Assembly (NCBI GenBank): GCA_016234495.1
Contig: JACRBI010000054.1
Location: 1-64,000, forward strand
Length of the DNA stretch: 64,000 nucleotides
Reading direction: 5' to 3'
Source: Chloroflexota bacterium
Lineage (GTDB): Bacteria; Chloroflexota; Anaerolineae; Anaerolineales; Villigracilaceae
Numbering within the stretch: the first letter of the stretch is position 1; each line of letters opens with the position of its first letter. The notes under the pieces are model-generated. The model had not been told where the DNA came from. It did not search any database and saw nothing but the letters and a program-made list of their open reading frames with translations. A program made the translations under genes and the position numbers. This document shows positions 28,128 to 61,183 of this stretch, in pieces.

Positions 28128-28931
28128 TCACTTCTCTATCTTCATTGACTTCCCCGTCCCCTTATCTTTTATCATCATCACCTCAGCCATGATGCTGACG
28201 GCAATTTCTTCGGGAGTCTCGGCTTGCAATTCCAATCCCATCGGCGAGTGGACTCGGGCGATCTGTTCCTCGCTGATGCCTTTCTCTTTCAACGCTTTGA
28301 CCGTGGTTGCCCATCTGCGGCGCGAACCAATCACGCCGATGTACGCGGCAGCGGAATCCAGCAGCGGGGCGAGTCCGGCCGCATCGACGGATGATCCTCT
28401 CGTGGTTAAGATCAGAACCGTGCGTCTGTCAATTTTTATATATTCAGGGAGTTTGTCCATCGTCACCGGATAATATGCGTCTGCTTCGGGGGTGGCTTCG
28501 GGCGTGCAAAATTCAGCCCGGTCATCATTGACCGCTACGCGGAATCCAAGCCACTTCGCCAAATGGACAACGGCTTTGCCCACGTGTCCCGCGCCGATGA
28601 CAACCAAAAGGGGAGCGGGAAGAATTGGTTCCACAAATACCTCCACCTGACCGCCGCACACGCCAACATCTCCGCGCGAGGGATCGGCCATGTTGTAATG
28701 CAGTCTGCGCGGCTGACCGTCAGTGATCGCCATCCATGCTTCGTCGAGCACGCGATGTTCAAGGTCGCCGCCGCCGACCGTGCCGATGAATTTTCCGTCG
28801 GGGTAGACCAGCATTTTGCTGCCCACATGCCGCGGCGTGGAGCCTTCGCTGCTCGTCACTGTGCATAGCGCGGCAGACCCATTATTCTTTTCGATTTCTG
28901 CAAGGGACTGGTAAATGGAAATGGTATTCAT
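28128..28931 (-). CDS. XdhC-family molybdenum cofactor insertion protein
   Basis: Chaperone that binds, sulfurates and inserts molybdenum cofactor into xanthine-dehydrogenase-type hydroxylases. The 267-residue protein has the N-terminal XdhC domain (CTVTSSEGSTPRHVGSKMLV, GGGDLEHRVL, DVGVCGGQVEVFVEP) and a C-terminal Rossmann domain (VVIGAGHVGKAVVHLA, GVIGSRRRW). It lies 4 kb from the molybdenum hydroxylase large subunit, its probable client. The stop codon is next to a repeat arm (GAGCAGTTATCAGTGATTGG). No Shine-Dalgarno is visible. Confidence 0.92.
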   Translation of the reverse strand: MNTISIYQSLAEIEKNNGSAALCTVTSSEGSTPRHVGSKMLVYPDGKFIGTVGGGDLEHRVLDEAWMAITDGQPRRLHYNMADPSRGDVGVCGGQVEVFVEPILPAPLLVVIGAGHVGKAVVHLAKWLGFRVAVNDDRAEFCTPEATPEADAYYPVTMDKLPEYIKIDRRTVLILTTRGSSVDAAGLAPLLDSAAAYIGVIGSRRRWATTVKALKEKGISEEQIARVHSPMGLELQAETPEEIAVSIMAEVMMIKDKGTGKSMKIEK

Positions 28932-30422: not shown

Positions 30423-30504
30423 TGTTTTGTCCTGATGATGAATTTGAAATCATTTTCCCAAGAAAGAGATTAGACCTCTTGCATAAGTGTGTCATAATAG
30501 GCAC

Positions 30505-30942
30505 ATGAACTACGAGACAATTGAACATCTAAAAGATAGCGACTTCAAACGACTCACGGGCGTCCAGCGCGAAACCTTCGATCAGATGCTCGCAGTCATC
30601 GAAAAAGGGTTGCGAGACTTCGGGAGACCACCGAAACTAAGCCGAGCCGATCAACTGTTGATGACCTTGATGTACTGGCGAGAATATCGAACGGAATTTC
30701 ATATTGCACAATCCTATGGTGTCAGTGAAGCAACAGTTTGCCGCACCATCCAGAAAGTAGAAAATGCCTTAGTCCGTTCAAAAAAGTTTCGTTTGCCTGG
30801 CAAGAAGGCACTCCAAGCTAGCGATATGGTGTTCGAGGTGGTGCTGGTAGATGTCAGTGAACAACCCATAGAGCGCCCCAAAAAAGCCAAAAACGGCATT
30901 ACAGTGGCAAAAAGAAGCGTCACACCCAAAAAGCGCAGGTAA
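30505..30942 (+). CDS. IS5-type transposase, first frame
   Basis: A 145-residue N-terminal part of a DDE_Tnp_4-type transposase: a helix-turn-helix (FHIAQSYGVSEATVCRTIQK) and the first catalytic aspartate in EVVLVDVSEQPIERP. The frame runs past A-tracts at 30880-30885 and 30889-30893 and ends at 30942. The -1 frame across this point gives the expected SGKKKRHTQKAQVMADRK continuation, so the full enzyme needs a -1 shift. ATG 30505 is preferred over GTG 30487, which lies in the terminal repeat. Confidence 0.88.
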   Translation: MNYETIEHLKDSDFKRLTGVQRETFDQMLAVIEKGLRDFGRPPKLSRADQLLMTLMYWREYRTEFHIAQSYGVSEATVCRTIQKVENALVRSKKFRLPGKKALQASDMVFEVVLVDVSEQPIERPKKAKNGITVAKRSVTPKKRR

Positions 30943-31322
30943 TGGCAGATCGAAAGAGTGCCCAAATCATCACCACTGCCTTTAGTTATGGAAGCAAACA
31001 TGACTTTCAACTGTTCAAAGAGGATGCCTGTGAATTCTCTGAAAATCTTCGTATTCTGGCAGATGCTGGCTATCAAGGATTGACGGAACTTCACCAGAAC
31101 AGCCAGACACCCTTCAAGAAATCCAAATACCATGCTCTGACGAAGCGAGAAATACAGAGTAATCGAAACTTGGCGCGGAAGCGGATTGTGATTGAGCATA
31201 TATTTCGTAAGTTGAAAGTATTTCGCATCTTGAGTGAAAGGTATCGCAATCGAAGAAAGAGGTTTGCTTTGCGCTTTAACCTGATCGCTACTATTTACAA
31301 CCTTGAACTCACCTCAAGCTGA
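30942..31322 (+). CDS. IS5-type transposase, second frame
   Basis: C-terminal catalytic half of the transposase, 126 residues from the first methionine but open further upstream in the -1 frame to the A-tract near 30889. The second aspartate lies in ILADAGYQGL and the glutamate in KRIVIEHIFRKLKVFRIL, followed by the usual RYRNRRKRFALRFNLIATIYN tail. Either made as a fusion by programmed -1 frameshifting, as in IS427-group elements, or separated by a one-base mutation. Confidence 0.85.
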   Translation: MADRKSAQIITTAFSYGSKHDFQLFKEDACEFSENLRILADAGYQGLTELHQNSQTPFKKSKYHALTKREIQSNRNLARKRIVIEHIFRKLKVFRILSERYRNRRKRFALRFNLIATIYNLELTSS

Positions 31323-32817: not shown

Positions 32818-35800
32818 TTATTTTGATTTTAAAGCCTTCCAAACTCTTTCAGGCGTGACGGGAATTTCATCCACATTTGCGCCGATGGCATCGAGGATGG
32901 CGTTGCCGACAGCTGGCGCGACACCGTCCATTGGAATCTCCGCGACGGCTTTGACTCCAAACGGATGACTCGGCTCGAACGTCTCAACGAAAATTGTTTC
33001 CAGTTCTGGCATCTCGTCAGCGCGGAAGAGGTGATAGCGGTCGAAGTCGCGTTCGATGGCATTGCCTTTTTCATCGTAGCGCATTTCCTCGGTGACGGCG
33101 TAGCCGAGCGCCTGAGTAAGACCGCCTTCGATCTGACCTGACGCCGTCTGCGGGTTGATGATGATGCCCGAGTCGACCGCCATCACCAGCCTGTCCACTG
33201 TGACCGCGCCAGTTTCCACATCGACGGTGACTTCGGCGAACTGCGCCGCGAATGGCGGCGGCGAGACCGGCGAGACATAACTGGCCACGCCCATGATCTG
33301 CTCCTGATTATTTCTGTGCAGGCTGTCGAGCGCGATCTCGCTGAATGGAATGGTCTGACCGTTGGGGGCTATTGCCGTTCGGTTGGAAAGTTGCAAGTTG
33401 GAAGGCTCAACATCCAGCCCTGCATCCTTGAACATTCTGGCCGCCCGAATTTTGATTCTCTCCGCCACGATCTTCGCGGCGTTCGTGGCGGCAGTTCCTG
33501 AAACATAAGTTGTTGAAGAAGCATACGCGCCTTTGTCGAACGGAGTGAAATCCGTGTCGGATGAATAGCAGATCATGTCTTCGACGGGAACGCCTAAAAC
33601 TTCCGCTGCCATTTGCGCGAGGACAGTATCCGAGCCGGTGCCCAGGTCTGTTGCGCCGACGAGCAAATTGAACGAGCCGTCATCGTTCATCTTGATGGAC
33701 GCGCCGCCCATGTCAAGGTAGGGGATGGCTGTGCCTTGCATGACCATCGCAACGCCGATACCTTTGCGGACGGACGATAGACGATTGACGGTGGACGGTC
33801 TATGGCCTTCGGTCAATCGTCCGCTTCTCCATTCCTCATTCCCATATTTATCATCCCAATTGATCGCGGCGCGGCCTTGCGCCACGCATTGTTCCAACCC
33901 AACCGTGTGGATGATCTCCGGGCGCGGCTCGCGCCCTTCATTCCATGCGGTTGAAAACGGATGATACTCTCCGGGGTGAATCGCATTCTTCAAGCGGAAG
34001 TCGATCGGGTCAAAGCCCATCGCGCGCGCGATCTTTTCCATGTGACGGTCAAGCGGCCAGTAGCCCTGCGGTACGCCATAGCCGCGAAACGCTCCGGCAG
34101 GCGGCGTGTTGGTGTAAACCACGTCGGCATAAAAGCGGATGTTTGGCGCTTTGCGATACTCGCCGTCACCGACGTACAATGCCATCGACTTGTGACCCGT
34201 GTTGCCGGTCACTGTCAGCGCGTGACAGCCATACGCGCCGGTATCCGACAACGCATACATCGAGTTGGCTGTGATCGTGCCGTCTTTCTTCACGCCGGTC
34301 TTCATCCGCACGCGCATCGGGTGACGCGAACGCGCCGCTATAAATTCCTCCTCGCGGGTGTACTCGTACATCACCGGCCGCTTTGTTGCGATGGTCAAAT
34401 GCGCGGCCACGTCTTCCATCAGCACTTCCTGTTTGCCGCCGAATCCGCCGCCGATGCGCGGCTTGATCACGCGGATTCTCTTCACGGGCAAGCCCAGCAC
34501 CGGCGCCATCATTCTGCGCACGTGGAACGGCACCTGCGTGGATGTGCGAATCACAAGACGGTCATCTTCATCCCAATACGTCACCACCACATGCGGCTCG
34601 ATGTGCGCCTGCTGAACTTTCGGCACTTCATATTCCGCTTCGAAAATTTCATCGGCTTCAGCGAATCCTTTTTCGATATCGCCGATGTCAATGCGGATGT
34701 GAGCCGCGAGATTCTTCTCTGGATTTGAATCTGCGAAGTTGACATATTCCGGCTCGTCGTGGATTCGGATCGGACTCCCCATGGCCTGTCTTGCGTCAAG
34801 GATCGGAGTCAGCACCTCGTACTCGACCTCGATCAACGCGAGAGCTTTTTCCGCGATCTCGGCAGTTTCTGCTGCGACGAATGCCACGCGGTCACCAACA
34901 AAGCGGACTTTTTTATCCAGAGAGAAAGCATCCAACGGCCCGGGAATCGGGTCAGACTGCCCTGCGGTGGAATACACCACCCGCGGCAGATCCTGCCACG
35001 TGAGGACTGCGGCAACGCCGTCGAGCGCTTTGGCTTTGCTGGTATCTATATTTTTAATTAATGCGTGCGCGTGCGGTGAATGTAAAACCTTGGCATGGAG
35101 CATTCCGCGCTTTTCGAAATCTGCGGCGAAGGCGGGTTTGCCTTGCACGAGTTTGACCGCATCCACTTTGATCTCTGGCTTGCCGACGGTCTGGTAGGTT
35201 TTTGATTCGGGAGATAAAACTACTTTTGGCCGAACCTGCACACCCGTCAGGTTTGAAGCGGGGGCGTCATTTTGCGGCGAGTCATCTTTGGGTGTGCCGA
35301 AGTCCCAATTAATGGAACCCAGTTCGAGCGGCGCATCGCCCCTTAATTCCGCGGCGGCCTTTAACACGGCCTGCACAGGTTTGAGATAGCCTGTACAGCG
35401 GCAGAGCACACCGGAAATTGCCTCGCGGACTTCGGCCTCGTTTGGGTTGGGATTTTTTTCAAGCAGTGATTTCGCGGCGAGGATTTGCGCGGGCGTGCAA
35501 TAGCCGCATTGGATCGCGCCCGTTTCAACGAACGCCTTTTGCAGGGGATGCAGGCCGTCGGTTAATTTCCAACCTTGTTCGGGGTGCTCACCGAGCGCTT
35601 CGATGGTGGCGACCTTGTGACCTTCCGCCTGCGCGGCAAGCATTGAACCTGCGTTGACAGGTTTTCCATTTAATAAAACTGTGTCTGCGCCGCTCAAGCC
35701 GCCCTCATCGCCGAACTTGACTCCGTGGAAGCCCATCCCGCGCAAAGCGGCGAGCAGGGTGGTGGCGGGGGCGAGGTCAATGTTGTGGTCTATGCCGTTG

Positions 35801-35820
35801 ATGTGTAGTGTGATGTTCAT
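32818..35820 (-). CDS. Molybdenum hydroxylase, fused FeS and Mo-pterin subunit
   Basis: A 1000-residue xanthine dehydrogenase-family protein. Residues 1-75 have the plant-type ferredoxin fold but all four cluster cysteines are replaced: the place of GCxxGxCGAC reads GDEGGLSGAD, and VNSC reads VNAG. The second [2Fe-2S] domain is intact (IQCGYC, LCRC). From about 215 the Mo domain follows: GGGFGGKQEV, PPAGAFRGYG, VGATDLGTGSD, and the catalytic glutamate region VAEIPMDGVAPAVGNA. Two repeat-derived segments lie inside. AGGAG precedes the ATG. XdhC (28128) and the FAD subunit (38851) are its likely partners. The substrate, a purine or other heterocycle, is unknown. Confidence 0.9.
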   Translation of the reverse strand: MNITLHINGIDHNIDLAPATTLLAALRGMGFHGVKFGDEGGLSGADTVLLNGKPVNAGSMLAAQAEGHKVATIEALGEHPEQGWKLTDGLHPLQKAFVETGAIQCGYCTPAQILAAKSLLEKNPNPNEAEVREAISGVLCRCTGYLKPVQAVLKAAAELRGDAPLELGSINWDFGTPKDDSPQNDAPASNLTGVQVRPKVVLSPESKTYQTVGKPEIKVDAVKLVQGKPAFAADFEKRGMLHAKVLHSPHAHALIKNIDTSKAKALDGVAAVLTWQDLPRVVYSTAGQSDPIPGPLDAFSLDKKVRFVGDRVAFVAAETAEIAEKALALIEVEYEVLTPILDARQAMGSPIRIHDEPEYVNFADSNPEKNLAAHIRIDIGDIEKGFAEADEIFEAEYEVPKVQQAHIEPHVVVTYWDEDDRLVIRTSTQVPFHVRRMMAPVLGLPVKRIRVIKPRIGGGFGGKQEVLMEDVAAHLTIATKRPVMYEYTREEEFIAARSRHPMRVRMKTGVKKDGTITANSMYALSDTGAYGCHALTVTGNTGHKSMALYVGDGEYRKAPNIRFYADVVYTNTPPAGAFRGYGVPQGYWPLDRHMEKIARAMGFDPIDFRLKNAIHPGEYHPFSTAWNEGREPRPEIIHTVGLEQCVAQGRAAINWDDKYGNEEWRSGRLTEGHRPSTVNRLSSVRKGIGVAMVMQGTAIPYLDMGGASIKMNDDGSFNLLVGATDLGTGSDTVLAQMAAEVLGVPVEDMICYSSDTDFTPFDKGAYASSTTYVSGTAATNAAKIVAERIKIRAARMFKDAGLDVEPSNLQLSNRTAIAPNGQTIPFSEIALDSLHRNNQEQIMGVASYVSPVSPPPFAAQFAEVTVDVETGAVTVDRLVMAVDSGIIINPQTASGQIEGGLTQALGYAVTEEMRYDEKGNAIERDFDRYHLFRADEMPELETIFVETFEPSHPFGVKAVAEIPMDGVAPAVGNAILDAIGANVDEIPVTPERVWKALKSK
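33383..33411. repeat. GGTTGGAAAGTTG repeat-like stretch inside the Mo hydroxylase gene
   Basis: Reads like part of the repeat at 26783-26843 (GGTTGGAAAGTTG...) and encodes PSNLQLSNRT. The flanking alignment needs no gap, so chance similarity is possible. Confidence 0.35.
33772..33822. repeat. CCATAGACC-family palindrome inside the Mo hydroxylase gene
   Basis: GGACGATAGACGATTGAC ... GGTCAATCGTCC, 51 bp, in frame, encoding the segment GRLTEGHRPSTVNRLSSVR (about residues 680-698), absent from typical family members. Related copies at 39183-39238, 56552-56584, 57027-57054. Confidence 0.8.
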
Positions 35821-35833
35821 GGAGACTCCTAGG

Positions 35834-36346
35834 TTATTTCAACCGTGATTTTAACTCTTGCAGGTGAATGAGAATGTCCGGGTGGAGATCGAACTTGCTT
35901 GCTTGCGAAACGGCTTTTTGCGTGATGTGTTCCAGTTCTTCAAGCGTTATATGACCGTTCTTGATTAGAAAAATAATGTCATCGAAATCGGTGAACAAAC
36001 CGCGATCTACTTTGCTGAGTGCAATGCTGTATGGGTCAATAACATGGATTTCTAAATTCTCGAATTGACCAATATATATGTTGCGATCAGCGTTCCCTTC
36101 TGGCAGGGGAATAAAGCGATCTATGGGAACAATATCAACCTGTAGTTTCATTTCCCTGGCTTTGCTCATAATGATGCGATGTAATTCGATTGGATGGATA
36201 TCATCTCCGACGAAGTCTATATCACGTGATGGGCGCGGGCTTCCGAGAAGCGTAAGCGCGCTTCCTCCAAGGAGAAATAATCGGGAAGCAGGCGGAACCT
36301 GTTTACCAAGCGCCGTTAAGATGGATTGAAGCTCGCCATTATCCAT
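35834..36346 (-). CDS. DUF6036-like nucleotidyltransferase
   Basis: A 170-residue nucleotidyltransferase-fold protein: GGSALTLLGSPRPSRDIDFVGDD gives the GS...D-x-D catalytic pattern, and a third carboxylate may come from VDIVPID. Such stand-alone NTases often form the toxin half of two-gene toxin-antitoxin loci. ATG 36346 lies 2 nt after the stop of the upstream 160-residue gene, with AGGTG in that gene's last codons, so the two are translationally coupled. The longer frame from 36415 is rejected. Substrate unknown. Confidence 0.75.
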   Translation of the reverse strand: MDNGELQSILTALGKQVPPASRLFLLGGSALTLLGSPRPSRDIDFVGDDIHPIELHRIIMSKAREMKLQVDIVPIDRFIPLPEGNADRNIYIGQFENLEIHVIDPYSIALSKVDRGLFTDFDDIIFLIKNGHITLEELEHITQKAVSQASKFDLHPDILIHLQELKSRLK

Positions 36347-36348
36347 GA

Positions 36349-36831
36349 TTACACCTGCCCCAATTCCAGTTCTTTTAGCCAAATATCTGCGGCGTGTTGA
36401 TATGTGCCAAGCCAATTGATATGCGATCCGCTCAACTCTTGCTGGCGTTTTGCCAATGCGCGGAGGTTTTCTTCAGGATTTGTTGTGGGGAATAGCCCCA
36501 GTTCCTTTGAAAACAAATCCGGCAATTTGTTTTGTGAAAGGTATTTTTGTTCAAGCCAAACTGCCGCGCTGTAAAAGCATTTTAATATCAATCGAGATGC
36601 CGTATCTATTGTTTTTTCAACCGAATTTGCATGGACGGAAAATTCGGGGTGACAAAGAAAAAGCGGAATAAGGCTTAACTGCAAACGCGCTTCCTGGCTT
36701 TCCGCGAGGGCGGCAATTAATCTGGCGGGAGAAAGTTTCGGAGGGCGAGCGGGCTTGGAACCCAATATAAACCGCACATCCCTCGCCCAAAGTTCGGATA
36801 CCAGTTGGTCTTCAAGTGTTGGGGTGTTCAT
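36349..36831 (-). CDS. Hypothetical partner of the nucleotidyltransferase
   Basis: A 160-residue, mostly helical soluble protein without recognised domain. Two cysteines and several tryptophans are spread through it; no metal site or HTH is visible. Its ATG overlaps the methyltransferase stop codon (TAATG) and its stop is 2 nt before the nucleotidyltransferase ATG, so the three genes form one coupled operon. An antitoxin or accessory role for the NTase is plausible but unproven. Confidence 0.6.
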   Translation of the reverse strand: MNTPTLEDQLVSELWARDVRFILGSKPARPPKLSPARLIAALAESQEARLQLSLIPLFLCHPEFSVHANSVEKTIDTASRLILKCFYSAAVWLEQKYLSQNKLPDLFSKELGLFPTTNPEENLRALAKRQQELSGSHINWLGTYQHAADIWLKELELGQV

Positions 36832-37892
36832 TAATCTTTCAACCTTCTAATTCCTTCTCTCAATTCATCGATCACTTTCAACTTGCCGTTCTCTTTATAC
36901 AGCCATGAATCCCAGCCGTTAGCCGGTGCGCCATTTGACAATTCCCGTGCCACCGCGTGGATCGAGCCGACAAGTTCCCTGCATTTGAGATGTCCATTAG
37001 CAAGGATGCGCGCAGGCGTGCGGTCTTTTGCAAAATACAGGTTTTGACCGGGCTTGAGCAGTCCGTTTTCGAGCAGGCTCCCGAAGGGAATCCGCGCTGG
37101 TTTGGGCTTCTCGACTGTCAGAGATCCGTCCGGTGCAATTTTAACCTCGTCAATTCGCTTCTGCGCAACCTTGATATATTTTTTATCACGCTCAATGCCG
37201 ATGTAATGTCGCCCCAGTTTCTTCGCCACTGCGCCGGTAGTCCCGCTTCCAAAAAATGGGTCAAGGATTACGTCCCCGACATTACTGCTGGACATTAGCA
37301 CGCGATACAACAGCGACTCTGGTTTCTGGGTTGGGTGAGCCTTTGTCCCGTTGGATTTGATGCGCTCTTTTCCAGTCGCCAGCGGCAAAGCCCAGTCTGA
37401 CCGCATTTGCAGGTCATCGTTCAAGGCTTTCATCGAATGGTGATTGAAGGTGTATTTCGCGCCTTTATTTTTTTGCGCCCAGATCATCGTTTCGTGCGCG
37501 TTGGTGAACCGCACGCCACGGAAATTCGGCATGGGGTTTGTCTTCAGCCAGATGATATCGTTCAAAATCCAGAATCCCAAATCCTGCATGATCGCGCCGA
37601 CACGGTAGATGTTGTGATACGAGCCAATGACCCAGATCGTGCCAGTCTGTTTCAGCACGCGCCGAATCGCGGATAACCACTCGCTGGTGAAGGAGTCGTA
37701 CTCTGCAAAACTGCTGAACTTGTCCCACTTGTTATTGACCGCGTCCACTTTGCTTAAGTCGGGGCGGTACAGGTCATTTTGCAGTTGGAGGTTATAGGGA
37801 GGGTCGGCGAATACCAAATCCACCGAATTCTCGGGGAGTGACTTGAGAATCTCAATGCAGTCGCCTTGCAGGATTTGGTTGAGGGGGAGCAT
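36831..37892 (-). CDS. CcrM-like adenine-N6 DNA methyltransferase
   Basis: A 353-residue beta-class methyltransferase closely resembling Caulobacter CcrM (GANTC). DPPYNLQLQNDLYRPD (motif IV) comes first, then WVIGSYHNIYRVG, NDIIWLKTNPMPNFRG, HPTQKPESLLYRV and motif I DPFFGSGTTG. The C-terminal 80 residues match the RAMA-type extension of CcrM (RIPFGSLLENGLLKPGQ, GSIHAVA, NGWDSWLY). No restriction gene is adjacent, so it is a solitary methyltransferase. Start at ATG 37892: TATAAT lies 10 nt before it without a Shine-Dalgarno. Confidence 0.92.
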   Translation of the reverse strand: MLPLNQILQGDCIEILKSLPENSVDLVFADPPYNLQLQNDLYRPDLSKVDAVNNKWDKFSSFAEYDSFTSEWLSAIRRVLKQTGTIWVIGSYHNIYRVGAIMQDLGFWILNDIIWLKTNPMPNFRGVRFTNAHETMIWAQKNKGAKYTFNHHSMKALNDDLQMRSDWALPLATGKERIKSNGTKAHPTQKPESLLYRVLMSSSNVGDVILDPFFGSGTTGAVAKKLGRHYIGIERDKKYIKVAQKRIDEVKIAPDGSLTVEKPKPARIPFGSLLENGLLKPGQNLYFAKDRTPARILANGHLKCRELVGSIHAVARELSNGAPANGWDSWLYKENGKLKVIDELREGIRRLKD

Positions 37893-37902
37893 CACAAGGC
37901 GA

Positions 37903-37908
37903 ATTATA
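37903..37908 (-). promoter_or_regulatory. -10 element of the methyltransferase operon
   Basis: TATAAT on the minus strand, in the 19-bp gap between the C39-like gene stop and the methyltransferase ATG, 10 nt from the ATG. The -35 region would lie in the preceding gene and is weak. Confidence 0.5.
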
Positions 37909-37911
37909 CCT

Positions 37912-38775
37912 TTACCCATCCGGCGAAATGACCGTGATGGAAAATCGCGGCGGGTAGAACAGGAATTTCCTGCCCCAGAAATCCATCAATTGGTCGGTTG
38001 TCATTTTAAAAAATTTCGGGGTGACCGGCTTGAGTTTGTCCGCAGGCCACGGGTCGGCCGGGTTGAGCAGCAGCCATTGTGACTCAGCGCCGTCATAGCC
38101 GATCAGCACCATGGTATGCGGCATTCCCCCGAGCAAAGCAAGCAGCGGATTGTATTCAAGGTTCTTATTTTGGCGGTCAATTGTCATTTGCCATGCGCCG
38201 TGAATGAGGATGAGCCTGCCGGCCTGTAAATTTTCGATCAAGTCAGACGGTTTGCGGCGCGCCTGCATCTTCACCTTGAACGACCTGCCGTATTTACGGG
38301 TCAGGCTCTTTGTAAAATCCTTCAAAGCCAGAATCGCCTGCCAGGGAGTCATCATGCCAGGCAGCGGGCTGCTGGTCGAGAAGCGATACTTCCAGCCCCA
38401 AACTCCAAGCAAGTCAAGCTCACGGACATAACTTTGGATGTTGCGGTCAGGCTCCAATGCGCGGCCCTGCGTGGCCAGGTCCTTGAGCAGGTTCATGCAC
38501 ATCAACACGGAAGTAGTGACGCACTCATTCGGCGTCGGCCCATATCCCTGGCTTTGGAAATAATGCAGGAAATAAGATTCCCCGTCCTGTCTGTTTTCAG
38601 AATTTTGCGGCATTCCCCAAATTTTTTCTGTGATGCCTTGCGGCGGAAGTGTGTGCCGGCGATTTCGATATATTCTGTCCAAAAGCGCATCAAGCCAGCG
38701 GATAAAATTCGGTCGCGCCTGACTTTGGGCTGGTTCGCCCGAACTGTCATTTCCCTTGGCTTTGAGAGAATCCAT
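37912..38775 (-). CDS. C39-like papain-fold peptidase domain protein
   Basis: A 287-residue protein without signal peptide. The region from about 80 onward resembles peptidase_C39_2: the candidate nucleophile in TPNECVTTSVLMCMN, the histidine in GGMPHTMVLIGYD, and the Asp/Asn in LLNPADPWP. The residues are in the order and spacing of the catalytic triad. The N-terminal 75 residues are polar. GGAGG precedes the ATG. Its substrate is not indicated. It ends 20 bp before the methyltransferase gene but the latter has its own -10. Confidence 0.75.
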   Translation of the reverse strand: MDSLKAKGNDSSGEPAQSQARPNFIRWLDALLDRIYRNRRHTLPPQGITEKIWGMPQNSENRQDGESYFLHYFQSQGYGPTPNECVTTSVLMCMNLLKDLATQGRALEPDRNIQSYVRELDLLGVWGWKYRFSTSSPLPGMMTPWQAILALKDFTKSLTRKYGRSFKVKMQARRKPSDLIENLQAGRLILIHGAWQMTIDRQNKNLEYNPLLALLGGMPHTMVLIGYDGAESQWLLLNPADPWPADKLKPVTPKFFKMTTDQLMDFWGRKFLFYPPRFSITVISPDG

Positions 38776-38850: not shown

Positions 38851-39606
38851 CTAAATTGTTCCGAGGCATCTTTTTGCCAGCGTGGATGCCACATCCATAC
38901 GATAGGCGGCGGAAGCCCATTCATCTGTCGCTTCGTGGAAGGCATTGCGCGCAGCAGATTCGATGCCGTCTGCTTCGGTGCCGTCCATTGCCAGCATGGG
39001 ACTCTTGCCATAGCCGCCAAGCGCCAGCCGCGTGCGGCCGGAGTTCCACTGGGCGAGCGCGGCGCAGACGATGGGTTTGTCGGCGGGGGTGCGGGAGACA
39101 AATTCAAATGCGAGTTTGGTGTTGAGGGGGACGGTGACCGCGGTGATCAGTCCGTGTGGGCGGAGGGGGAGAAAATCACCAAGACCATAGACGATGGACG
39201 ATTGACCGTCCACGGTTTTCGGTCCATGGTCTATGGTCAACTTTGCATCCATTGCCAGCAAGGCCGTTGCGAATGGAGAACGTCCGTCACTTGCGACGAG
39301 CGTTCCGGCGACAGTGGCTGAATTGCGGATGTTGATCGGCGCTTCGAGTTTGATGGCGGCTTTCAATGCTGCGGGGCAAGCCTCGTTTTCGAGCAATGAC
39401 TGGAGTGTGGCAGTCGCTCCGATTTCGAGGTCATTGCCTTTTTTTGTTAGGAAGTCCAAACCCAAAGCTTGAAGATCAACCGCTTGGACAGAATCAACTG
39501 TCGGCTGGGAGAGAAGCGTTCCTCCTCCGAGCGGGACGGTGTTCGGTTGAGTCAAAAGATTTAGGGCTTCGTCAAGAGTCTGCGGGCGGTGATAAGTCGT
39601 GATCAT
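38851..39606 (-). CDS. Molybdenum hydroxylase FAD-binding subunit
   Basis: A 251-residue CoxM/XdhB-type flavoprotein. FAD-binding motifs: LGGGTLLSQPTV near residue 30 and RNSATVAGTLVASDGRSP near 100. The C-terminal CO-dehydrogenase flavoprotein domain follows with RLALGGYGKSPML. Residues 130-150 (DHGPKTVDGQSSIVYG) are encoded by a palindromic repeat. GGAGG precedes the ATG. It would hand electrons from the large subunit (32818-35820) to an acceptor. The gene ends in its own terminator and is separated from the large subunit by the methyltransferase island. Confidence 0.9.
   Translation of the reverse strand: MITTYHRPQTLDEALNLLTQPNTVPLGGGTLLSQPTVDSVQAVDLQALGLDFLTKKGNDLEIGATATLQSLLENEACPAALKAAIKLEAPINIRNSATVAGTLVASDGRSPFATALLAMDAKLTIDHGPKTVDGQSSIVYGLGDFLPLRPHGLITAVTVPLNTKLAFEFVSRTPADKPIVCAALAQWNSGRTRLALGGYGKSPMLAMDGTEADGIESAARNAFHEATDEWASAAYRMDVASTLAKRCLGTI
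39183..39238. repeat. CCATAGACC-family palindrome inside the FAD-subunit gene
   Basis: GACCATAGACGATGGAC ... GTCCATGGTCTATGGTC, 56 bp, read in frame. It replaces the loop that normally precedes the ADFF/GDF segment of the family. Confidence 0.85.
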
Positions 39607-44322: not shown

Positions 44323-45015
44323 TCACTTCTCTCCCCAGTGAATCGCGATCGTGCCAAACATCAGGCGTTTGAAATCCACCTTCTTGAATCCAGCCGCCAT
44401 CATGCGTGACGCCATCTCCTCGGCAGTGACAAATCCTTCGGTGGTTTCAGGCAAATAGCGGTACGCCTCGCTGACCCCGGTCAACAGGCCGCCAAGCGTG
44501 GGGATGATGAAGTGCATGTGAATCCAGATGAACGGCGACAAAATATTTTTCTTCGGGCGGGTGGTGTCGAGCACGATCATACGTCCGCCGGGCTTGAGCA
44601 CGCGGAACTGTTCCTCGATGGCTTTTTGCAGATCGATCACATTGCGCATGAGAAAACCAGAGATGACCGCGTCGAAGGATGAATCGTTAAAGGGCAGCCT
44701 CAGCGCGTCGGCAGTGGAAAAATTCAAAGCGCTGATCCTTTGTCCAACGCGCATCATCTCGTGGGTAAAGTCAGATGCGATGACCTTCGCCCGCGGGAAC
44801 TGCGTCGCGGCTTCGCGTGCCAGGTCGCCGGTACCAGTTCCCAGGTCCAGCAGTGACGCGGAGTTATCCATCCGCGCAAGTTTGATGACCATCTTGCGCC
44901 AGCGAATATCCTGCCCGCCAGTCATGAGTCGATTCATCAAGTCATAGCGTTTTGCGATACGGGTAAACATATTTTGAACGTACGCCGCGCGTTCGTTGCC
45001 TGTAAGTTGGGTCAT
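44323..45015 (-). CDS. menG: Demethylmenaquinone methyltransferase
   Basis: UbiE/MenG family, 230 residues; C-methylates demethylmenaquinone with SAM, the last step of menaquinone synthesis. SAM motif LDLGTGTGDLA near residue 57, family blocks NRLMTGGQDIRWRK, ISGFLMRNVIDL and FVTAEEMASRMMAAGF. AAGGAG lies 6 nt before the ATG, and a TATAAT on the minus strand lies about 25 nt upstream. Divergent from menA. Confidence 0.94.
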   Translation of the reverse strand: MTQLTGNERAAYVQNMFTRIAKRYDLMNRLMTGGQDIRWRKMVIKLARMDNSASLLDLGTGTGDLAREAATQFPRAKVIASDFTHEMMRVGQRISALNFSTADALRLPFNDSSFDAVISGFLMRNVIDLQKAIEEQFRVLKPGGRMIVLDTTRPKKNILSPFIWIHMHFIIPTLGGLLTGVSEAYRYLPETTEGFVTAEEMASRMMAAGFKKVDFKRLMFGTIAIHWGEK

Positions 45016-45083
45016 GAGGTTCTCCTTAAGTTCGGCATATTATACCCATACGGGCACTTGTAAACGCATGATATACTCGCCGA

Positions 45084-45168
45084 ATGTCATTGCGAGGAGC
45101 GCTCTTTGCGACGAAGCAATCTCCTGTTGTACCAGAGATTGCTTCGCGAAGACCGCTCGCAATGACAT
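45084..45168. repeat. ATGTCATTGCGAG palindromic repeat, copy 4
   Basis: Outer arms ATGTCATTGCGAGGAGCG / CGCTCGCAATGACAT, inner arms GAAGCAATCTC / GAGATTGCTTCG, immediately upstream of menA. Confidence 0.92.
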
Positions 45169-45188
45169 TTCAGTTACAGGAGATTTCG

Positions 45189-46067
45189 ATGAATTTACTT
45201 CAAATCTGGTGGCTTGCGATTCGTCCGCGCACATTGCCGGCCGCTGCTTCCGGTGTTGTGATGGGCAGCGCGCTTGCGTGGCGCGACGGCTCATTTCAAC
45301 TTCTGCCTGCGCTGGCTGCTTTGCTGGTGGCACTGCTTTTGCAAATCGGCAGCAACGTGGCGAATGATGTTTTTGATTTCGAGCGCGGCGCGGATACGGC
45401 GGAGCGGCAAGGCCCGCTGCGCGTGACTCAGGCTGGACTACTCACGCCCGCGCAGGTCAAACGCGGTATGTGGATTATCTTCGGGCTGGCGGCTTTTTGC
45501 GGACTTTACCTTGCAGCGCTTCGCGGCTGGACCGTGATCTGGATCGGCGTTGCAGCCATTGTCTCAGCGATAGCATATACCGGCGGGCCATTCCCGCTTG
45601 GCTATTATGGACTTGGCGATTTATTCGTGTTCATCTTCTTCGGCCTCGCCGCAGTGGCAGGGACGTATTATGTGCAAGTCGGTTCTGTCAGCGCCGCCGC
45701 GTGGTGGATGTCTGTGCCGATTGGATTAATCATCACTGCGATTTTGGTTGTCAATAATTTGCGCGACCTCGAAAATGACCGCGCCGCAGGCAAGCACACG
45801 CTGGCGGTGCGAATCGGCTCGCAGGCCACAAAAATTGAATATGTTTTGCTTATCGCGATTGCGTATCTGTTGTTGCCCGTTTTGCTTGTGATGAATCTGA
45901 TTCCCGCAATGACAATGCTGACATGGGTTTCGCTGCCGCTTGCATTTAAATCCACGCGCACGGTGTTGGCTCAGACAGGCCGTCCGCTCAATGCCGCGCT
46001 CGCGGGGACAGGTCAAACCGCGTTGGCTTATAGTCTTTTGTTCTTTTTGGGGATATTGCTTTCATAA
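45189..46067 (+). CDS. menA: 1,4-dihydroxy-2-naphthoate polyprenyltransferase
   Basis: UbiA-superfamily membrane enzyme that prenylates DHNA to demethylmenaquinone. It has 292 residues and about nine helices. First Asp-rich motif NDVFDFERGADTAERQGP, second NNLRDLENDRAAGKHTLAVRIG. ATG 45189 has AGGAG 6 nt upstream; the longer frame from 45084 is made of the palindromic repeat and is rejected. It faces menG across a divergent gap. Confidence 0.94.
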   Translation: MNLLQIWWLAIRPRTLPAAASGVVMGSALAWRDGSFQLLPALAALLVALLLQIGSNVANDVFDFERGADTAERQGPLRVTQAGLLTPAQVKRGMWIIFGLAAFCGLYLAALRGWTVIWIGVAAIVSAIAYTGGPFPLGYYGLGDLFVFIFFGLAAVAGTYYVQVGSVSAAAWWMSVPIGLIITAILVVNNLRDLENDRAAGKHTLAVRIGSQATKIEYVLLIAIAYLLLPVLLVMNLIPAMTMLTWVSLPLAFKSTRTVLAQTGRPLNAALAGTGQTALAYSLLFFLGILLS

Positions 46068-46071
46068 AACG

Positions 46072-46103
46072 AGGTGACAGTCCTTACAAAGTTACTGTCA
46101 CCT
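46072..46103. repeat. AGGTGACAGT inverted repeat between menA and menH
   Basis: Perfect arms AGGTGACAGT / ACTGTCACCT with a 12-nt loop. Its right arm contributes part of the menH stop codon. There is no T-run, so it is not a standard terminator. Confidence 0.75.
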
Positions 46104-46872
46104 ATGCTAAAAAATTTTTCAGCAGCGAAATATATTTTTCAGGTTGCTCCGCATGGACATTGTGCCCCGCTTCGGGCACAATGTTTTTTTGTGCCGACGG
46201 AATCCGCTCGGACATTTTGTGAATCACCTGAAGGTACTTTTCATCTTTCGCGCCTGAGATCAACAAGACGGGAAATGAAAGTTTGGACAACGAGTCCCAA
46301 AGCGGAGTCTGCGCGCCGGGGCTGAGGTCGCGGATGACTTTTGCCATCCAGCGCGGGTCATTTTGTTTGGCTGATTCTTTGATCGTGGATAATTTTTCAG
46401 GGTGGGAATTCAAGCTGGCGAAGAGCGGCATTCGATACCAGTTTTCCACAAAAGCGGACATACCATCCCTCAAAATAGATTCAGCGCGGGCGGAGTCTTC
46501 CACTAGCCTTTTAGCGCGTTCGGTTTCGTCCATGATGCCAGGGCTGGCGGATTCGAGAATGAGGGAGTGAATTCTTTCGGGATGATGAACCGCAAAATGC
46601 AAAGCAACTCGTCCGCCAAGCGAGTATCCAATAAGATGAATTTTCGGCGCGGGGATTTTATCGAGCAATTGCAAAAGCCAGTCGGTCAAAACATCAAAGT
46701 TGAGCGGGGAATTAATTTCAAGGTTCGTGTTTTTGCCATGACCAATTAAGTCGGGCAGGATACAAAAATATTGTTCCTGTAGCGCGACATTTATGTCGTG
46801 CCAGCTTTTCTCGCTTCCGAGAAAACCATGCAGAAAAACGAGCGGAGGGCTTTCCGAATTGCCGAGAAACAT
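46102..46872 (-). CDS. menH: Alpha/beta hydrolase, SHCHC synthase (MenH) candidate
   Basis: A 256-residue alpha/beta hydrolase. FLHGFLGSEKSW gives the oxyanion region, GYSLGGRVAL the nucleophile elbow, and EAGHNVHAEQP the histidine; DEKYLQV supplies the Asp area. Its place at the end of the menF-D-B-E run and its size suggest MenH, which eliminates pyruvate from SEPHCHC. The ATG overlaps the DAHP synthase stop (TAATG), so the genes are co-translated. Confidence 0.88.
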   Translation of the reverse strand: MFLGNSESPPLVFLHGFLGSEKSWHDINVALQEQYFCILPDLIGHGKNTNLEINSPLNFDVLTDWLLQLLDKIPAPKIHLIGYSLGGRVALHFAVHHPERIHSLILESASPGIMDETERAKRLVEDSARAESILRDGMSAFVENWYRMPLFASLNSHPEKLSTIKESAKQNDPRWMAKVIRDLSPGAQTPLWDSLSKLSFPVLLISGAKDEKYLQVIHKMSERIPSAQKNIVPEAGHNVHAEQPEKYISLLKNFLA

Positions 46873-47657
46873 TAGATTAATTTGCGTCCCATCGCAGAGG
46901 CGATGCGGCGCATGTCTTCAATGAAAGTGGGCAACGATTCAAGCGGAAGCGATTGCTCGCCATCGGATAGCGCTTCTGTGGGATTCGGGTGAACTTCCAC
47001 GATCAAACCGTCCGCGCCGGCTGCGAGGGCGGCGCGTGATGCGGCCGGGACCAAATCTGCGCGGCCTGTGGCATGGCTTGGGTCGGCGATGATCGGAAAC
47101 TGCGTGGATGTTTTGACTTGCGCGATGGCGCTCACATCCAATACGTTGCGCGTGGACGAATCAAAACTGCGGATGCCGCGCTCGCATAAAATGATTTGTT
47201 CATTTCCGCGCGAGGCGATGTGTTCCGCCGCCGCCAGCCACTCCGCAATTGTGGACATGAATCCGCGCTTGAGCAGAATCGGTTTCGGCTGTTCGCCTGC
47301 CGCCCACAACAGCGGAAAGTGCTGCATGTTGCGGCTTCCAATTTGAATGATGTCGCTGTATTCAACGACCATCGGCAATTGCTCCACACCCAGCGCTTCG
47401 GAGATGACGAGCATCCCAAACTCATCCGCAATTGCGCGAAGAATTTTCAAACCGTCGAGTCCGAGTCCTTGAAAGGCATCTGGCGAGGTGCGCGGCTTGA
47501 ATGCTCCGCCGCGCAAGATTCGCAAACCAAGCGCGCGCATGGATTTTGCAACGGCGTATGTCTGCTCGTAACTTTCGACCGAGCACGGTCCAGTCATGAG
47601 CAGAATGTCATCGCTGCCGATGGTGAGGTTGTTGGGAAGTGAAATGATGTTTGTCAT
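46872..47657 (-). CDS. 3-deoxy-7-phosphoheptulonate synthase
   Basis: First enzyme of the shikimate pathway, here 261 residues, i.e. the core TIM barrel without the N-terminal regulatory domain of many relatives. Motifs GPCSVES, LRGGAFKPRTSPDAFQGLG, QIGSRNMQHFPLL, LLKRGFM, CERGIRSFD, DPSHATGR and IVEVHPNPTEALSDG match the AroQ-type/KDO8P-like DAHP synthases. It overlaps menE by 4 nt (ATGA) and menH by the TAATG junction, so it is embedded in the menaquinone operon and may supply chorismate for it. Confidence 0.92.
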   Translation of the reverse strand: MTNIISLPNNLTIGSDDILLMTGPCSVESYEQTYAVAKSMRALGLRILRGGAFKPRTSPDAFQGLGLDGLKILRAIADEFGMLVISEALGVEQLPMVVEYSDIIQIGSRNMQHFPLLWAAGEQPKPILLKRGFMSTIAEWLAAAEHIASRGNEQIILCERGIRSFDSSTRNVLDVSAIAQVKTSTQFPIIADPSHATGRADLVPAASRAALAAGADGLIVEVHPNPTEALSDGEQSLPLESLPTFIEDMRRIASAMGRKLI

Positions 47658-49093
47658 AGTTTTGTGTTTAGACCTGACAGGATTCTAAATCCTGTCAGGT
47701 CTTTAATTTCAGCGCGCTTCAATTTTCCCGAAGCCGTATGTGGCAGCGACTCGACGAAGATGATTTGCTTCGGGATTTTATAACCTGCGATTTTTCCGCG
47801 TAAAAAGTGGATGAGATTTTCTTCGCTGACGGATTCGCGGACGACGACAGCCGCCGCAACCGACTGCCCCCAGGCTGGGTCGGGCAATCCGACGACACAG
47901 GCTTCGCTGACGACGGGGTGACTCGTCAATGCGCGCTCCACTTCTTCGGGGTAAATATTCTCCCCGCCGCTGACGATTAAATCTGTGCGGCGGGTGAGCA
48001 CCCACAAGTCGCCGTCTGAATCAAGATAGCCGACATCGCCAGTATGTAGGTCACGCTTCAAGCGTGACCTACCCAAATATCCTTGCATGACTGTCTTTCC
48101 ACTGACGACAATTTCGCCAACCTGATTGGCAGGCACGGGTTGATTATTTTCATCCACAATTGTGACGGTTGTTCCGCTCATCGGTTTGCCGACACTGCCG
48201 GGCTTTGCGCGAGTCTGCTCGGGGGTGGAGGTGGCGACCTGCGAGGTCGCTTCGGTCAAGCCGTAGGTGAGCGCAATCGGTAAGTTCAAATCCAATGCGG
48301 CCTTGAGCAAACTTTCTGGTGCGCCCGCTCCGCCAAGGAGAATCACCCGCAGAGACGGTGACGGCTTGAAGTGTGGATATTTTTCCAGCAGGCGGTGCAA
48401 CATGGTTGGGACAAGCGAAACGTGGGTGATGTTTTCTTCTGTCAGCGCATGGTGGACGGCATCCACGTCAAAGCCGGAGTGGAGGACGATTTCAATTCCA
48501 TATATCGCGGCGCGGAAGACGATGGACATTCCGCCGATGTGATAGAGCGGCATGGTCAACAGCCAGCGGTCACTTGCTTGAACGGGCAATCTTTCAGCGG
48601 AAGCCAATGCGCTGGCATAGTGATTGTCGAAGGTCAGCAGTGCGCCTTTGGGAAAGCCAGTTGTTCCAGAGGTGAAAAATATCCCTTGAACGGAATCAGG
48701 CTCAGGCGTGGAATGAATCGAGGAGGAAAAATGCTGAGGCGAAGATAAAAATTCGGAGAGCAGAATCCGCTTTGGGTGTTTGAGATGTTCCGATTCGCAA
48801 ATCAATAAATCGCATTGACTTTGCTCCACCTGCCAGCGGAGTTCGGACTCGGTAAGGCGCGTGTTGAGCGGAACGGCGACCGCGCCGATCTTTGCCAGTG
48901 CGTGGATGAGCGCAACATAAAATGGTTGGTTGCTGAGGTGAATACCGACGCGCGCACCGTGCGAAATGTTTTGCGCTTCAAGTTCAACGGCGATAGACTC
49001 TGCCCAGGCGTTGAGGGCGGAGTATGTCCACGTTTGATTTTTAAATTCAAGCGCGAGAATTTTTTGTGCGGCGCGTTTCGTAAGCCAGTCCAT
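47654..49093 (-). CDS. menE: o-Succinylbenzoate--CoA ligase
   Basis: Activates o-succinylbenzoate with ATP and CoA. The 479-residue AMP-forming ligase has IFFTSGTTGFPKGALLT, LTYGLTEATSQVATS, HTGDVGYLDSDGD, SGGENIYPEEVE and the catalytic lysine in ASGKLKRAEI. Two parts come from palindromic repeats: GRSRLKRDL just before HTGD (48046-48072) and the last 15 residues DLTGFRILSGLNTKL (47671-47701). AAAGGA precedes ATG 49093; the frame from 49189 is repeat-derived and rejected. Confidence 0.93.
   Translation of the reverse strand: MDWLTKRAAQKILALEFKNQTWTYSALNAWAESIAVELEAQNISHGARVGIHLSNQPFYVALIHALAKIGAVAVPLNTRLTESELRWQVEQSQCDLLICESEHLKHPKRILLSEFLSSPQHFSSSIHSTPEPDSVQGIFFTSGTTGFPKGALLTFDNHYASALASAERLPVQASDRWLLTMPLYHIGGMSIVFRAAIYGIEIVLHSGFDVDAVHHALTEENITHVSLVPTMLHRLLEKYPHFKPSPSLRVILLGGAGAPESLLKAALDLNLPIALTYGLTEATSQVATSTPEQTRAKPGSVGKPMSGTTVTIVDENNQPVPANQVGEIVVSGKTVMQGYLGRSRLKRDLHTGDVGYLDSDGDLWVLTRRTDLIVSGGENIYPEEVERALTSHPVVSEACVVGLPDPAWGQSVAAAVVVRESVSEENLIHFLRGKIAGYKIPKQIIFVESLPHTASGKLKRAEIKDLTGFRILSGLNTKL
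47671..47701. repeat. GACCTGACAGG palindrome forming the MenE C-terminus
   Basis: GACCTGACAGGATT-CTA-AATCCTGTCAGGTC, nearly perfect 14-bp arms, read in frame as DLTGFRILSGL. Confidence 0.85.
48046..48072. repeat. GTAGGTCA palindrome inside menE
   Basis: Identical in core to the intergenic copy at 12442-12468. Read in frame it gives GRSRLKRDL. Confidence 0.9.
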
Positions 49094-49106
49094 TTGATTC
49101 CTTTCT

Positions 49107-49189
49107 ATGTCATTGCGAGGCGTAGCCGAAGCAATCTTCTTGCTACGTGGAGATTGCTTCGCCGCAAAGAACGCGGCTCGCAATGACAT
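49107..49189. repeat. ATGTCATTGCGAG palindromic repeat, copy 5
   Basis: Outer arms ATGTCATTGCGAGGC / GGCTCGCAATGACAT, inner arms GAAGCAATCT / AGATTGCTTC, between menB and menE. Confidence 0.92.
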
Positions 49190-49195
49190 GGTGAC

Positions 49196-50023
49196 TTACG
49201 GCAGCCACGGATACTTGCGGAAGTTTGGCTTGCGCTTTTCGTTGTAGGCGTTGCGGCCTTCCTGTCCTTCTTCGGACATGTAGAAAAGCATGGTGGCATT
49301 GCCCGCGAGTTCCTGCAAACCGGCCTGCCCGTCGAGTTCGGCGTTGAACGCAGACTTGAGATTGCGAATCGCGAGCGGACTCATCGCAAGAATTTCCTGC
49401 GCCCACTGAATACCCTCGGCTTCGAGTTGTTCAACGGGAACGACCTTGTTGACCAATCCCATGTCGAGCGCCTCCTGCGCGTTGTACTGGCGGCAGAGAT
49501 ACCAAATCTCGCGCGCCTTTTTCTGACCGACAACCCGCGCCAAATAGGATGATCCAAAACCCGCATCGAACGAACCGACCTTCGGACCTGTCTGCCCGAA
49601 AATGGCATTGTCAGCGGCGATGGTTAGATCCGCGATGACGTGCAGAACATGTCCGCCGCCGATGGCGTATCCTGCCACAAGTGCGATGACCGGCTTCGGC
49701 ATACTGCGAATGATCTTTTGCAATTTGAGCACGTTCAAGCGCGGCACGCCGTCACTGCCCACATAGCCCGCGTTGCCGCGCACTTTCTGGTCGCCGCCAG
49801 AGCAGAAGGAATATTTTCCATCTTTTGCCGGGCCGTTGCCTGTGAGCAGAACCGCGCCGATGCGAGTGTCTTCCCACGCGTTCTCGAAGGCTTCGATCAT
49901 TTCCTTGATCGTGTCGGGGCGGAAGGCGTTGCGGACTTCGGGACGGTTGAACGCAATCCGCGCGATGCCGTCCGCTTTTTCGTAGGTGATGTCTTGGTAT
50001 TCTTTGGCTTTGATCCAGTTCAT
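49196..50023 (-). CDS. menB: 1,4-dihydroxy-2-naphthoyl-CoA synthase
   Basis: Crotonase-fold enzyme closing the second ring of menaquinone. 275 residues with [25 protein letters not shown], the substrate loop [13 protein letters not shown], the oxyanion [26 protein letters not shown] and the C-terminal [21 protein letters not shown], all MenB hallmarks. ATG 50023 has GAGGAA upstream; the 16 extra codons of the longer frame come from a repeat-containing gap. Confidence 0.97.
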
Positions 50024-50042
50024 GATTCCTCTTTTAGTTTTC

Positions 50043-50119
50043 ACCACAGAGCGCACGGACGCTTCGCGCACAGAGAAATCCTTTAAGAATTCCTCCGTGA
50101 TCTCTGTGTTCTCCGTGGT
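50043..50119. repeat. CCACAGAG inverted repeat, copy 2
   Basis: ACCACAGAGCGCACGGACGC ... CTCTGTGTTCTCCGTGGT between menD and menB; its end abuts the menD stop codon. Confidence 0.7.
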
Positions 50120-53174: not shown

Positions 53175-53205
53175 GAAAAATCTCCGGCACAAAACAAATG
53201 GTACG

Positions 53206-53799
53206 TTAGGTTCTGCCAACACTTTGCAACAATAATTTCCGCAAGGCAGGCAGCGAGCGGACAGGGTCAGGCTCGCCGGTGTACACCCAGCGCAGGATGA
53301 CCTCGTTCAACGCGCCCATCCATGCGCAAGCGGCGATCTCTGTATCCAATGGGGGGATGCTTCCGTCGGAGACGGCTTGATCGAGATTGTTTTTGATGAT
53401 GGCGATAAACCTGTCATTGACGGCGCGGCGTTTCTCCTCGAAGGCGAGTCCCAGCCCTGTGGCTTGCACGAGCGCGATCTTCGCCAGTCCGCGGTATTGG
53501 CCGAAAGTCTCCAAACAGACGCGCAAAGCCAGGTCGAGGCGTGCCATGCCCGAGGTCGAAGTGGCGAGGCGGTCTTTTAATCTGCCTTCTAGCAGGTCGG
53601 CGAAGGTGTCCACCAAGGCGAGGAAAATATCCTGTTTGCTGGGGAAGTAGAAATAGAACGAGCCTTTGGATGTGTTCGACTCGGCCACGATGTCATCAAC
53701 CTTGGTGTCATGGTAGCCTTTGCTGGCGAAGACGGTCACTGCCGCTTCGAGGATGCGGGCGCGAGTTTCGTGGGAGGGGTTGGCAGGGGCTTCTGTCAT
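53206..53799 (-). CDS. TetR/AcrR-family transcriptional regulator
   Basis: A 197-residue regulator. The N-terminal HTH is standard (ILEAAVTVFASKGYHDTKVDDIVAESNTS then KGSFYFYFPSKQDIF, residues 15-60); the C-terminal ligand domain is unassigned. First gene before menF, 31 nt from its TTG start. A palindromic operator (53810-53830) lies between its own promoter and ATG, so autorepression and control of the men genes are likely. Ligand unknown. Confidence 0.92.
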   Translation of the reverse strand: MTEAPANPSHETRARILEAAVTVFASKGYHDTKVDDIVAESNTSKGSFYFYFPSKQDIFLALVDTFADLLEGRLKDRLATSTSGMARLDLALRVCLETFGQYRGLAKIALVQATGLGLAFEEKRRAVNDRFIAIIKNNLDQAVSDGSIPPLDTEIAACAWMGALNEVILRWVYTGEPDPVRSLPALRKLLLQSVGRT

Positions 53800-53968: not shown

Positions 53969-54967
<999 letters not shown>

Positions 54968-57026: not shown

Positions 57027-57054
57027 CAGTCTATGGTCTACTGTCCACCGTCAA
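57027..57054. repeat. CCATAGACC-family repeat at the nitroreductase C-terminus
   Basis: CAGTCTATGGTCTACTGTCC and ACCGTCAA on the plus strand. It encodes LTVDSRP and supplies the TAG stop. Confidence 0.65.
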
Positions 57055-61181: not shown

Positions 61182-61183
61182 GG

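Follow-up and report, generated by a model that had tools for sequence, protein, structure and literature searches.

Both [2Fe-2S] clusters that stand between molybdenum (Mo) and flavin in molybdenum hydroxylases of the XdhD type have been lost repeatedly, FeS-II at least six times and FeS-I at least six times, in either order and with the Mo site kept. The enzyme considered here is encoded in a stretch of 64,000 nucleotides (the window) of contig JACRBI010000054.1 from a Chloroflexota bacterium of the Villigracilaceae (Anaerolineae; assembly GCA_016234495.1). Its fused iron-sulfur (Fe-S)/Mo subunit lacks all four cysteines of FeS-II. Flavin adenine dinucleotide (FAD) is the final link of the Mo-FeS-I-FeS-II-FAD chain established for the wider family. 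We lean toward the view that the window enzyme is active and that this relay is not its obligatory route.

The FeS-II site of the window enzyme

The original prediction described all four plant-type [2Fe-2S] cysteines as gone, and the replacements D38, S43, D46 and G58 are indeed present and shared by about 100 orthologues. The glycine that it gave for the fourth position lies at 35647-35649, just beyond the interval 35670-35820 to which it had assigned the loss. It was also right that the second cluster and the Mo site are intact: C105, C108, C140, C142 and E961 are all in place (N-terminus, GFHGVKFGDEGGLSGADTVLLNGKPVNAGSML; the protein at locus L115 is a cluster-bearing relative for comparison; coordinates in Table 1). 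Pfam matched Fer2_2 (99.7 bits) and three Mo domains in the window protein (PF02738, PF20256 and PF01315, molybdenum cofactor-binding and a/b hammerhead, far above cut-off) and gave no match to Fer2 (PF00111). There are no compensating cysteines in this protein; residues 1-165 hold those of FeS-I alone, and the next cysteine is residue 532. An AlphaFold model of the full-length protein had a predicted local distance difference test (pLDDT) score of 46.6, too low to use, and a model of the N-terminal domain (pLDDT 69.7, below 50 in the former cluster loop) says nothing on the FeS-II site. With the latter model, Foldseek ranked Fe-S subunits of the xanthine oxidase (XO) family first, at template modelling (TM) scores of only about 0.4.

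The replacements are widely conserved. Among 152 genomes of the same family that were searched, 131 gave a strong match, and a further set of 80 orthologous loci, mostly labelled Anaerolineales or Chloroflexi metagenome-assembled genomes (MAGs), showed 71-91% identity; nearly all sequences compared here come from MAGs. The pattern D-S/T-D-G with intact FeS-I occurs in nearly all of the 80 loci. In 115 FeS-II-less Anaerolineae sequences, D38 and D46 are each found in 108, position 43 is Ser or Thr in 110 and G58 is found in 94. K35, G37, E39, G41 and G44 are fixed around the former ligands. Over residues 28-64 and 98-146, cluster-bearing and FeS-II-less groups differ consistently chiefly at the ligand positions. 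The ratio of nonsynonymous to synonymous substitution rates (dN/dS) among close orthologues is about 0.11 in the FeS-II domain, 0.03 in the FeS-I domain and 0.04 in the Mo part, with synonymous sites near saturation. E961 is invariant across all groups and outgroups, and E961, Q429, R579 and E628 are invariant in all four Anaerolineae groups.

That all this reflects artefact or decay, whether a sequencing error, a pseudogene or a missing cluster that a different subunit provides, is extremely improbable. In-frame stops do occur in a few MAG copies, but identical residues in about 100 orthologues from independent assemblies, together with the strong purifying selection, rule out a pseudogene and also the sequence error that the original prediction had allowed for. 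The second ferredoxin subunit encoded elsewhere, which it had likewise allowed for, was not found: the bacterium's own genome has no unpaired XO-type Fe-S subunit, its four Fer2_2 matches being the window protein and three proteins at other Mo-hydroxylase loci. A complementing Fe-S subunit of the XO type is thereby ruled out. Very probably, the FeS-II site of the window enzyme holds no [2Fe-2S] cluster and the ferredoxin-like domain owes its stable fold to the acidic or polar residues that took the place of the ligands.

Recurrent loss of either cluster

Class and phylum sampling gave 171 distinct Anaerolineae sequences, of which 98 are without FeS-II only, 52 have both clusters, 17 have neither and four are without FeS-I only. 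A phylum search added cluster-less sequences with the residues STAD/SSDE (FeS-II/FeS-I; L228 and L229) and STAD/SADE (L242), and the patterns seen include DSDG/CCCC, CCCC/SESE, DSDG/CESD, SDSI/SDSE and DTDQ/SNDE. Four sequences (L191, L193, L196 and L198, from genomes G406, G226, G160 and G432) keep the four FeS-II cysteines and have lost FeS-I (SESE, SDSE, SDAE), which is the opposite of what the window enzyme shows, and the clade in this state has a support of 98. An apparent GCCC state in family f2 was a one-residue BLAST alignment slip; these proteins have all four cysteines.

Losses were counted on trees built from the Mo domain alone. With FastTree, FeS-II was lost 6 (Fitch) to 8 (Dollo) times and FeS-I 7 to 10 times. 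IQ-TREE with 84 rows gave 9 FeS-II changes and 6 FeS-I changes, or 8 and 6 when three long outgroup rows were removed. With these rows removed, a single origin was rejected by the approximately unbiased (AU) test both for FeS-II (p-AU 3.2e-6) and for FeS-I (p-AU 2.3e-6). We infer that the direction is loss because the outgroups and the wider family bear clusters. Support is low near the base of the window's clade, where it is unsettled whether the cluster-bearing L115, L118, L157 and L161 fall inside or outside. The earlier suggestion of a new subgroup holds insofar as the loss defines a large clade, but it is too narrow, since loss of either cluster or both recurs within one XdhD-type family.

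The XdhD of Escherichia coli (NC_000913; L119:7317-10187, strain MG1655) has none of the eight Fe-S cysteines, with Asp-Ala-Asp-Ser at FeS-II and Ser-Asn-Ser-Asp at FeS-I. A search of 5426 E. coli genomes found the N-terminal 504 bases of xdhD in 5128, with at least 80% of these bases covered and, in nearly all cases, an identity of at least 95%. A homologue from Cetobacterium somerae (L221) is 45% identical to E. coli XdhD and has all eight cysteines, so the loss in E. coli was a separate event. In the Mo trees the two pair with each other on long branches, apart from the Anaerolineae clade but near it. E. coli XdhD also has Gln at the position of window R579, which is conserved in relatives. 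RefSeq names it a Mo/Fe-S-binding subunit despite the missing cysteines.

The replacing residues are often acidic. When one consensus is taken per loss event, Asp or Glu occupies 24 of 58 replaced positions against a background of 0.131 (p 8e-8, a value that treats hand-chosen loss events as independent). Acidic replacement looks selected because more than one base change is needed to turn a Cys codon into one for Asp or Glu. Two carboxylates, we infer, often take the place of the negative charge for which the cluster loops were shaped, and acidic or polar residues at the FeS-II site of the window enzyme perhaps replace the charge of the cluster, keeping the domain folded. Alternatively, the Asp/Ser site might still bind metal, either as a [2Fe-2S] cluster ligated through oxygen or as a single metal ion, and the relay would then survive in altered form. 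The near-invariant Asp-Ser/Thr-Asp and the convergence of acidic replacements in separate lineages fit such a site. However, the fourth position is mostly Gly and otherwise mostly non-coordinating, lineages differ in their replacements (SDSV, STAD, DADS), as would not be expected of a single conserved metal site, and we know of no precedent for a redox-active mononuclear substitute for a cluster. We therefore consider a surviving metal site improbable.

FeS-II-less enzymes carry Tyr-Trp in the alignment columns of window residues 587 and 588, where cluster-bearing ones mostly carry Phe-Phe. This pair may reflect kinship only, or it may be an aromatic electron-hopping site.

Electron routes to the Mo centre

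According to the original prediction, an enzyme without FeS-II would have its path to the FAD subunit broken. As a general rule, this is contradicted by E. coli XdhD. Li et al. (2025) report that purified XdhD-YgfM, given reduced nicotinamide adenine dinucleotide (NADH), converts urate to yanthine, and that no yanthine is formed once xdhD is deleted (PMC12507026). Since XdhD lacks all eight cysteines and works with YgfM, a cluster-free member of the family has been reported to be active with a flavin subunit. The word "cysteine" is absent from the main text of PMC12507026, the portion of a commentary drawn on here (PMC12990295) does not raise the loss of cysteines from XdhD, and no earlier notice of the Fe-S loss was found in the literature searched, subscription journals and UniProt notes excepted.

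The window enzyme resembles E. coli XdhD-YgfM in its fused Fe-S/Mo chain and separate short FAD subunit, its equivalent of E606, its link to SsnA and its lost FeS-II ligands. E. coli XdhD differs in being only 36% identical, in lacking FeS-I as well, in having Gln for R579 and in belonging to a pathway with YgfK rather than an F420 enzyme. The xanthine dehydrogenase XdhABC and 4-hydroxybenzoyl-CoA reductase (4-HBCR) share the Mo-domain architecture, the FeS-I motif and the catalytic glutamate, and 4-HBCR, which is reductive, is the best PDB sequence match of the window protein (1rm6). Unlike the window enzyme, both have both [2Fe-2S] clusters, and the FAD subunit of 4-HBCR has an extra [4Fe-4S] cluster. 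The aldehyde oxidoreductase of Desulfovibrio gigas is also a fused Fe-S/Mo polypeptide without an FAD domain in the same chain, but it keeps both clusters and has no FAD domain (PMC2997495, PMC12316806); parts of PMC12316806 describe Mo and the Fe-S clusters as chained with gaps of about 12 Å, one passage numbering the clusters in reverse. The C. somerae homologue is likewise fused and lies beside ssnA, an FAD subunit and purine transporters, and differs in its eight cysteines.

An essential relay should seldom lose a link, and then only after its flavin partner had gone; the losses seen here are repeated and in either order, and the FAD subunit is kept. A gene for this subunit was found in all 15 genomes searched, each without one or both clusters, although it is sometimes unlinked and in one genome (G398) the match was only weak and partial. 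The disappearance of clusters is thus not explained simply by a missing flavin partner. The use of another acceptor or a different docking of the FAD subunit, both suggested by the original prediction, may still apply. The FAD-binding loops are mostly kept in the FAD subunits of cluster-less genomes. At L213, L217, L252 and L253 the second loop is degenerate, without the GG of RN-ATxGG, a hint that some lineages may be on the way to losing flavin binding. Two other ideas were rejected. Loss of the FAD gene from FeS-I-less lineages, suggested by gene neighbourhoods, was ruled out by whole-genome searches, and relocation of a cluster to the FAD subunit, as in 4-HBCR, was ruled out because this subunit has no insertion and its three cysteines are poorly conserved.

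The simplest route in the window's clade would be a direct, slower step between FAD and FeS-I, because FeS-I is strictly kept there. We tentatively propose, as one possibility, that electrons pass straight between the conserved FeS-I of the window enzyme and its FAD subunit, across a longer gap. Such a step cannot serve FeS-I-less or cluster-less lineages, which need a cluster-free route. In relatives without both clusters this would most simply be hydride transfer to the Mo centre; the candidates are hydride passed straight to Mo, a reaction that is redox-neutral and close flavin contact.

Hydride transfer might also operate in the window enzyme, in a ping-pong reaction in which NAD(P)H, F420H2 or close-range FADH2 reduces Mo(VI)=S directly, Mo(IV) dehydroxylates the purine and any surviving clusters are structural, so that no member of the family would need an Fe-S relay. 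This would account for losses in either order, including loss of FeS-I with FeS-II kept, which a relay shortened to FeS-I fails to explain. The activity of E. coli XdhD with NADH, with no ligand left (PMC12507026), and the F420 genes in the window cluster also favor it. Nevertheless, we think it unlikely: the FAD subunit, kept throughout with its loops mostly intact, would be needless if the donor met Mo directly, and a nicotinamide or F420 site near Mo is without structural evidence. Less probable still is a redox-neutral transhydroxylase or isomerase that hydroxylates one purine (or position) and dehydroxylates another, for example converting xanthine to yanthine via urate, while the relay decays. 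Parts of the relay have been lost repeatedly with the Mo site invariant, and canonical xanthine dehydrogenase genes adjoin the XdhD-type gene at L116, L117, L161-L163, L195 and L197. However, the FAD subunit is conserved, and E. coli XdhD was assayed with urate and NADH (PMC12507026). We are doubtful, though less so than for either of these reactions in the window enzyme, that a whole family of XO-type enzymes exchanges reducing equivalents with Mo without an Fe-S relay (through transhydroxylation, hydride ping-pong or flavin in direct contact), with clusters that are optional structural elements repeatedly replaced by charge-mimicking Asp, Ser or Glu.

Gene neighbourhood and probable substrate

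The genes for SsnA, F420 functions, the FAD subunit, the Mo protein and an XdhC-type factor lie on one strand of the window (Table 1). A menaquinone biosynthesis cluster (44323-53222) separates the SsnA and F420 genes from the FAD and Mo genes. At L116 and L111, ssnA and the genes for the F420 enzyme, FAD subunit and Mo protein are compact, on one strand within about 10 kb; the F420-dependent luciferase-like enzyme adjoins the FAD and Mo genes at L116 and is nearby at L111 and L117. There was no match in the window to YgfK, HyuA or YgeW/X/Y of the E. coli uricolytic cluster, and Li et al. describe Chloroflexota SsnA clusters in which an F420 enzyme replaces YgfK (PMC12507026). Distant Chloroflexota relatives with all eight cysteines lie beside ssnA and homologues of ygeY, ygeW, yqeA or hyuA.

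Table 1. Features of the window, with strand and remarks
Feature	Position	Strand	Remarks
Fused Fe-S/Mo subunit, XdhD-type molybdenum hydroxylase	32818-35820	-	ORF; 1000 aa, ATG start
Former FeS-II loop, D38-E-G-G-L-S43-G-A-D46	35683-35709	-	Cysteine positions 1-3 are Asp, Ser, Asp
D38	35707-35709	-	FeS-II ligand position 1
S43	35692-35694	-	FeS-II ligand position 2
D46	35683-35685	-	FeS-II ligand position 3
G58	35647-35649	-	Fourth FeS-II position; Cys in cluster-bearing relatives
C105 and C108 (QCGYC)	35497-35508	-	FeS-I ligands, intact
C140 and C142 (CRC)	35395-35403	-	FeS-I ligands, intact
E628	33937-33939	-	Equivalent of E606 in E. coli XdhD, which is proposed to set specificity for urate to yanthine (PMC12507026)
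E961	32938-32940	-	Catalytic glutamate at Mo site, invariant
FAD-binding subunit, YgfM/TIGR03312-like	38851-39606	-	251 aa; PF00941; TIGR03312 match below cut-off
Nucleotidyltransferase-like protein, 160-aa protein, CcrM-like DNA methylase, 287-aa protein	35834-38775	-	Between FAD and Mo subunits
XdhC-family Mo-enzyme maturation factor	28128-28931	-	
F420-dependent luciferase-like oxidoreductase (LLM enzyme)	53969-54967	-	
CofC	55042-55650	-	
CofD	55653-56708	-	
Nitroreductase	57031-57654	-	
F420 ligase CofE	57712-58533	-	
F420_oxidored	58660-59343	-	
SsnA aminohydrolase	59829-61244	-	TIGR03314, 502 vs cut-off 455.5 bits

Residue E606 of E. coli XdhD has been proposed to orient urate for yanthine formation (PMC12507026). 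Glu is found at the equivalent position, E628, in all 171 Anaerolineae sequences, in Cetobacterium and in E. coli, and is absent there from halophile, Ponticoccus and paralogue sequences. Of 50 genomes with the enzyme, 46 have an SsnA that scores above cut-off, with each of the four cluster states among them, and the association has a p of 0.0008 with kinship ignored. Judged from its sequence and neighbours, the window enzyme is most likely of the XdhD type and probably urate-reducing. We regard the chances as about even that it belongs to a reductive purine pathway (urate to yanthine) in which the Fe-S relay is dispensable; its partners there would be the YgfM-like FAD subunit, SsnA and an F420-dependent reductase.

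Several points weigh against this reading. The activity of a cluster-less member comes from one paper on E. coli XdhD, and the parts of that paper drawn on here describe an assay with 10 uM enzyme and report neither metal content nor electron paramagnetic resonance (EPR) of XdhD (PMC12507026). All 98 sequences that lack FeS-II but bear FeS-I keep the latter strictly conserved, and clusters are not simply drifting away there. TIGR03313 (XdhD) is the best-scoring NCBIfam family for the window protein at 693 bits, below the cut-off of 1101.9. SsnA is also present in 13 of 23 genomes without the enzyme, which rules it out as an exclusive partner. The substrate is deduced, and the link to urate is a good inference rather than a demonstration.

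Two other parts of the window may be mentioned. Near the Mo gene, two overlapping open reading frames (30487-31322; 151 and 126 aa) resemble, by eye, a two-frame transposase. Adjoining ssnA, an 842-aa protein with NACHT and HEAT repeats (61184-63712) is possibly a STAND-type signalling or defence protein.

The two [2Fe-2S] clusters between Mo and FAD have been treated as a fixed part of enzymes of the xanthine oxidase family. Close relatives among the XdhD-type enzymes form a natural series that shares one kind of Mo site but has two clusters, one (either) or none, and the role of the relay is thus directly testable without mutagenesis. For such proteins, the database annotation "Fe-S-binding" is wrong or half wrong. 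The series also points to a missing piece in the anaerobic urate pathway recently described for gut bacteria: E. coli XdhD, its first enzyme, is without Fe-S ligands, and electrons from NADH would have to reach Mo there by some other route.

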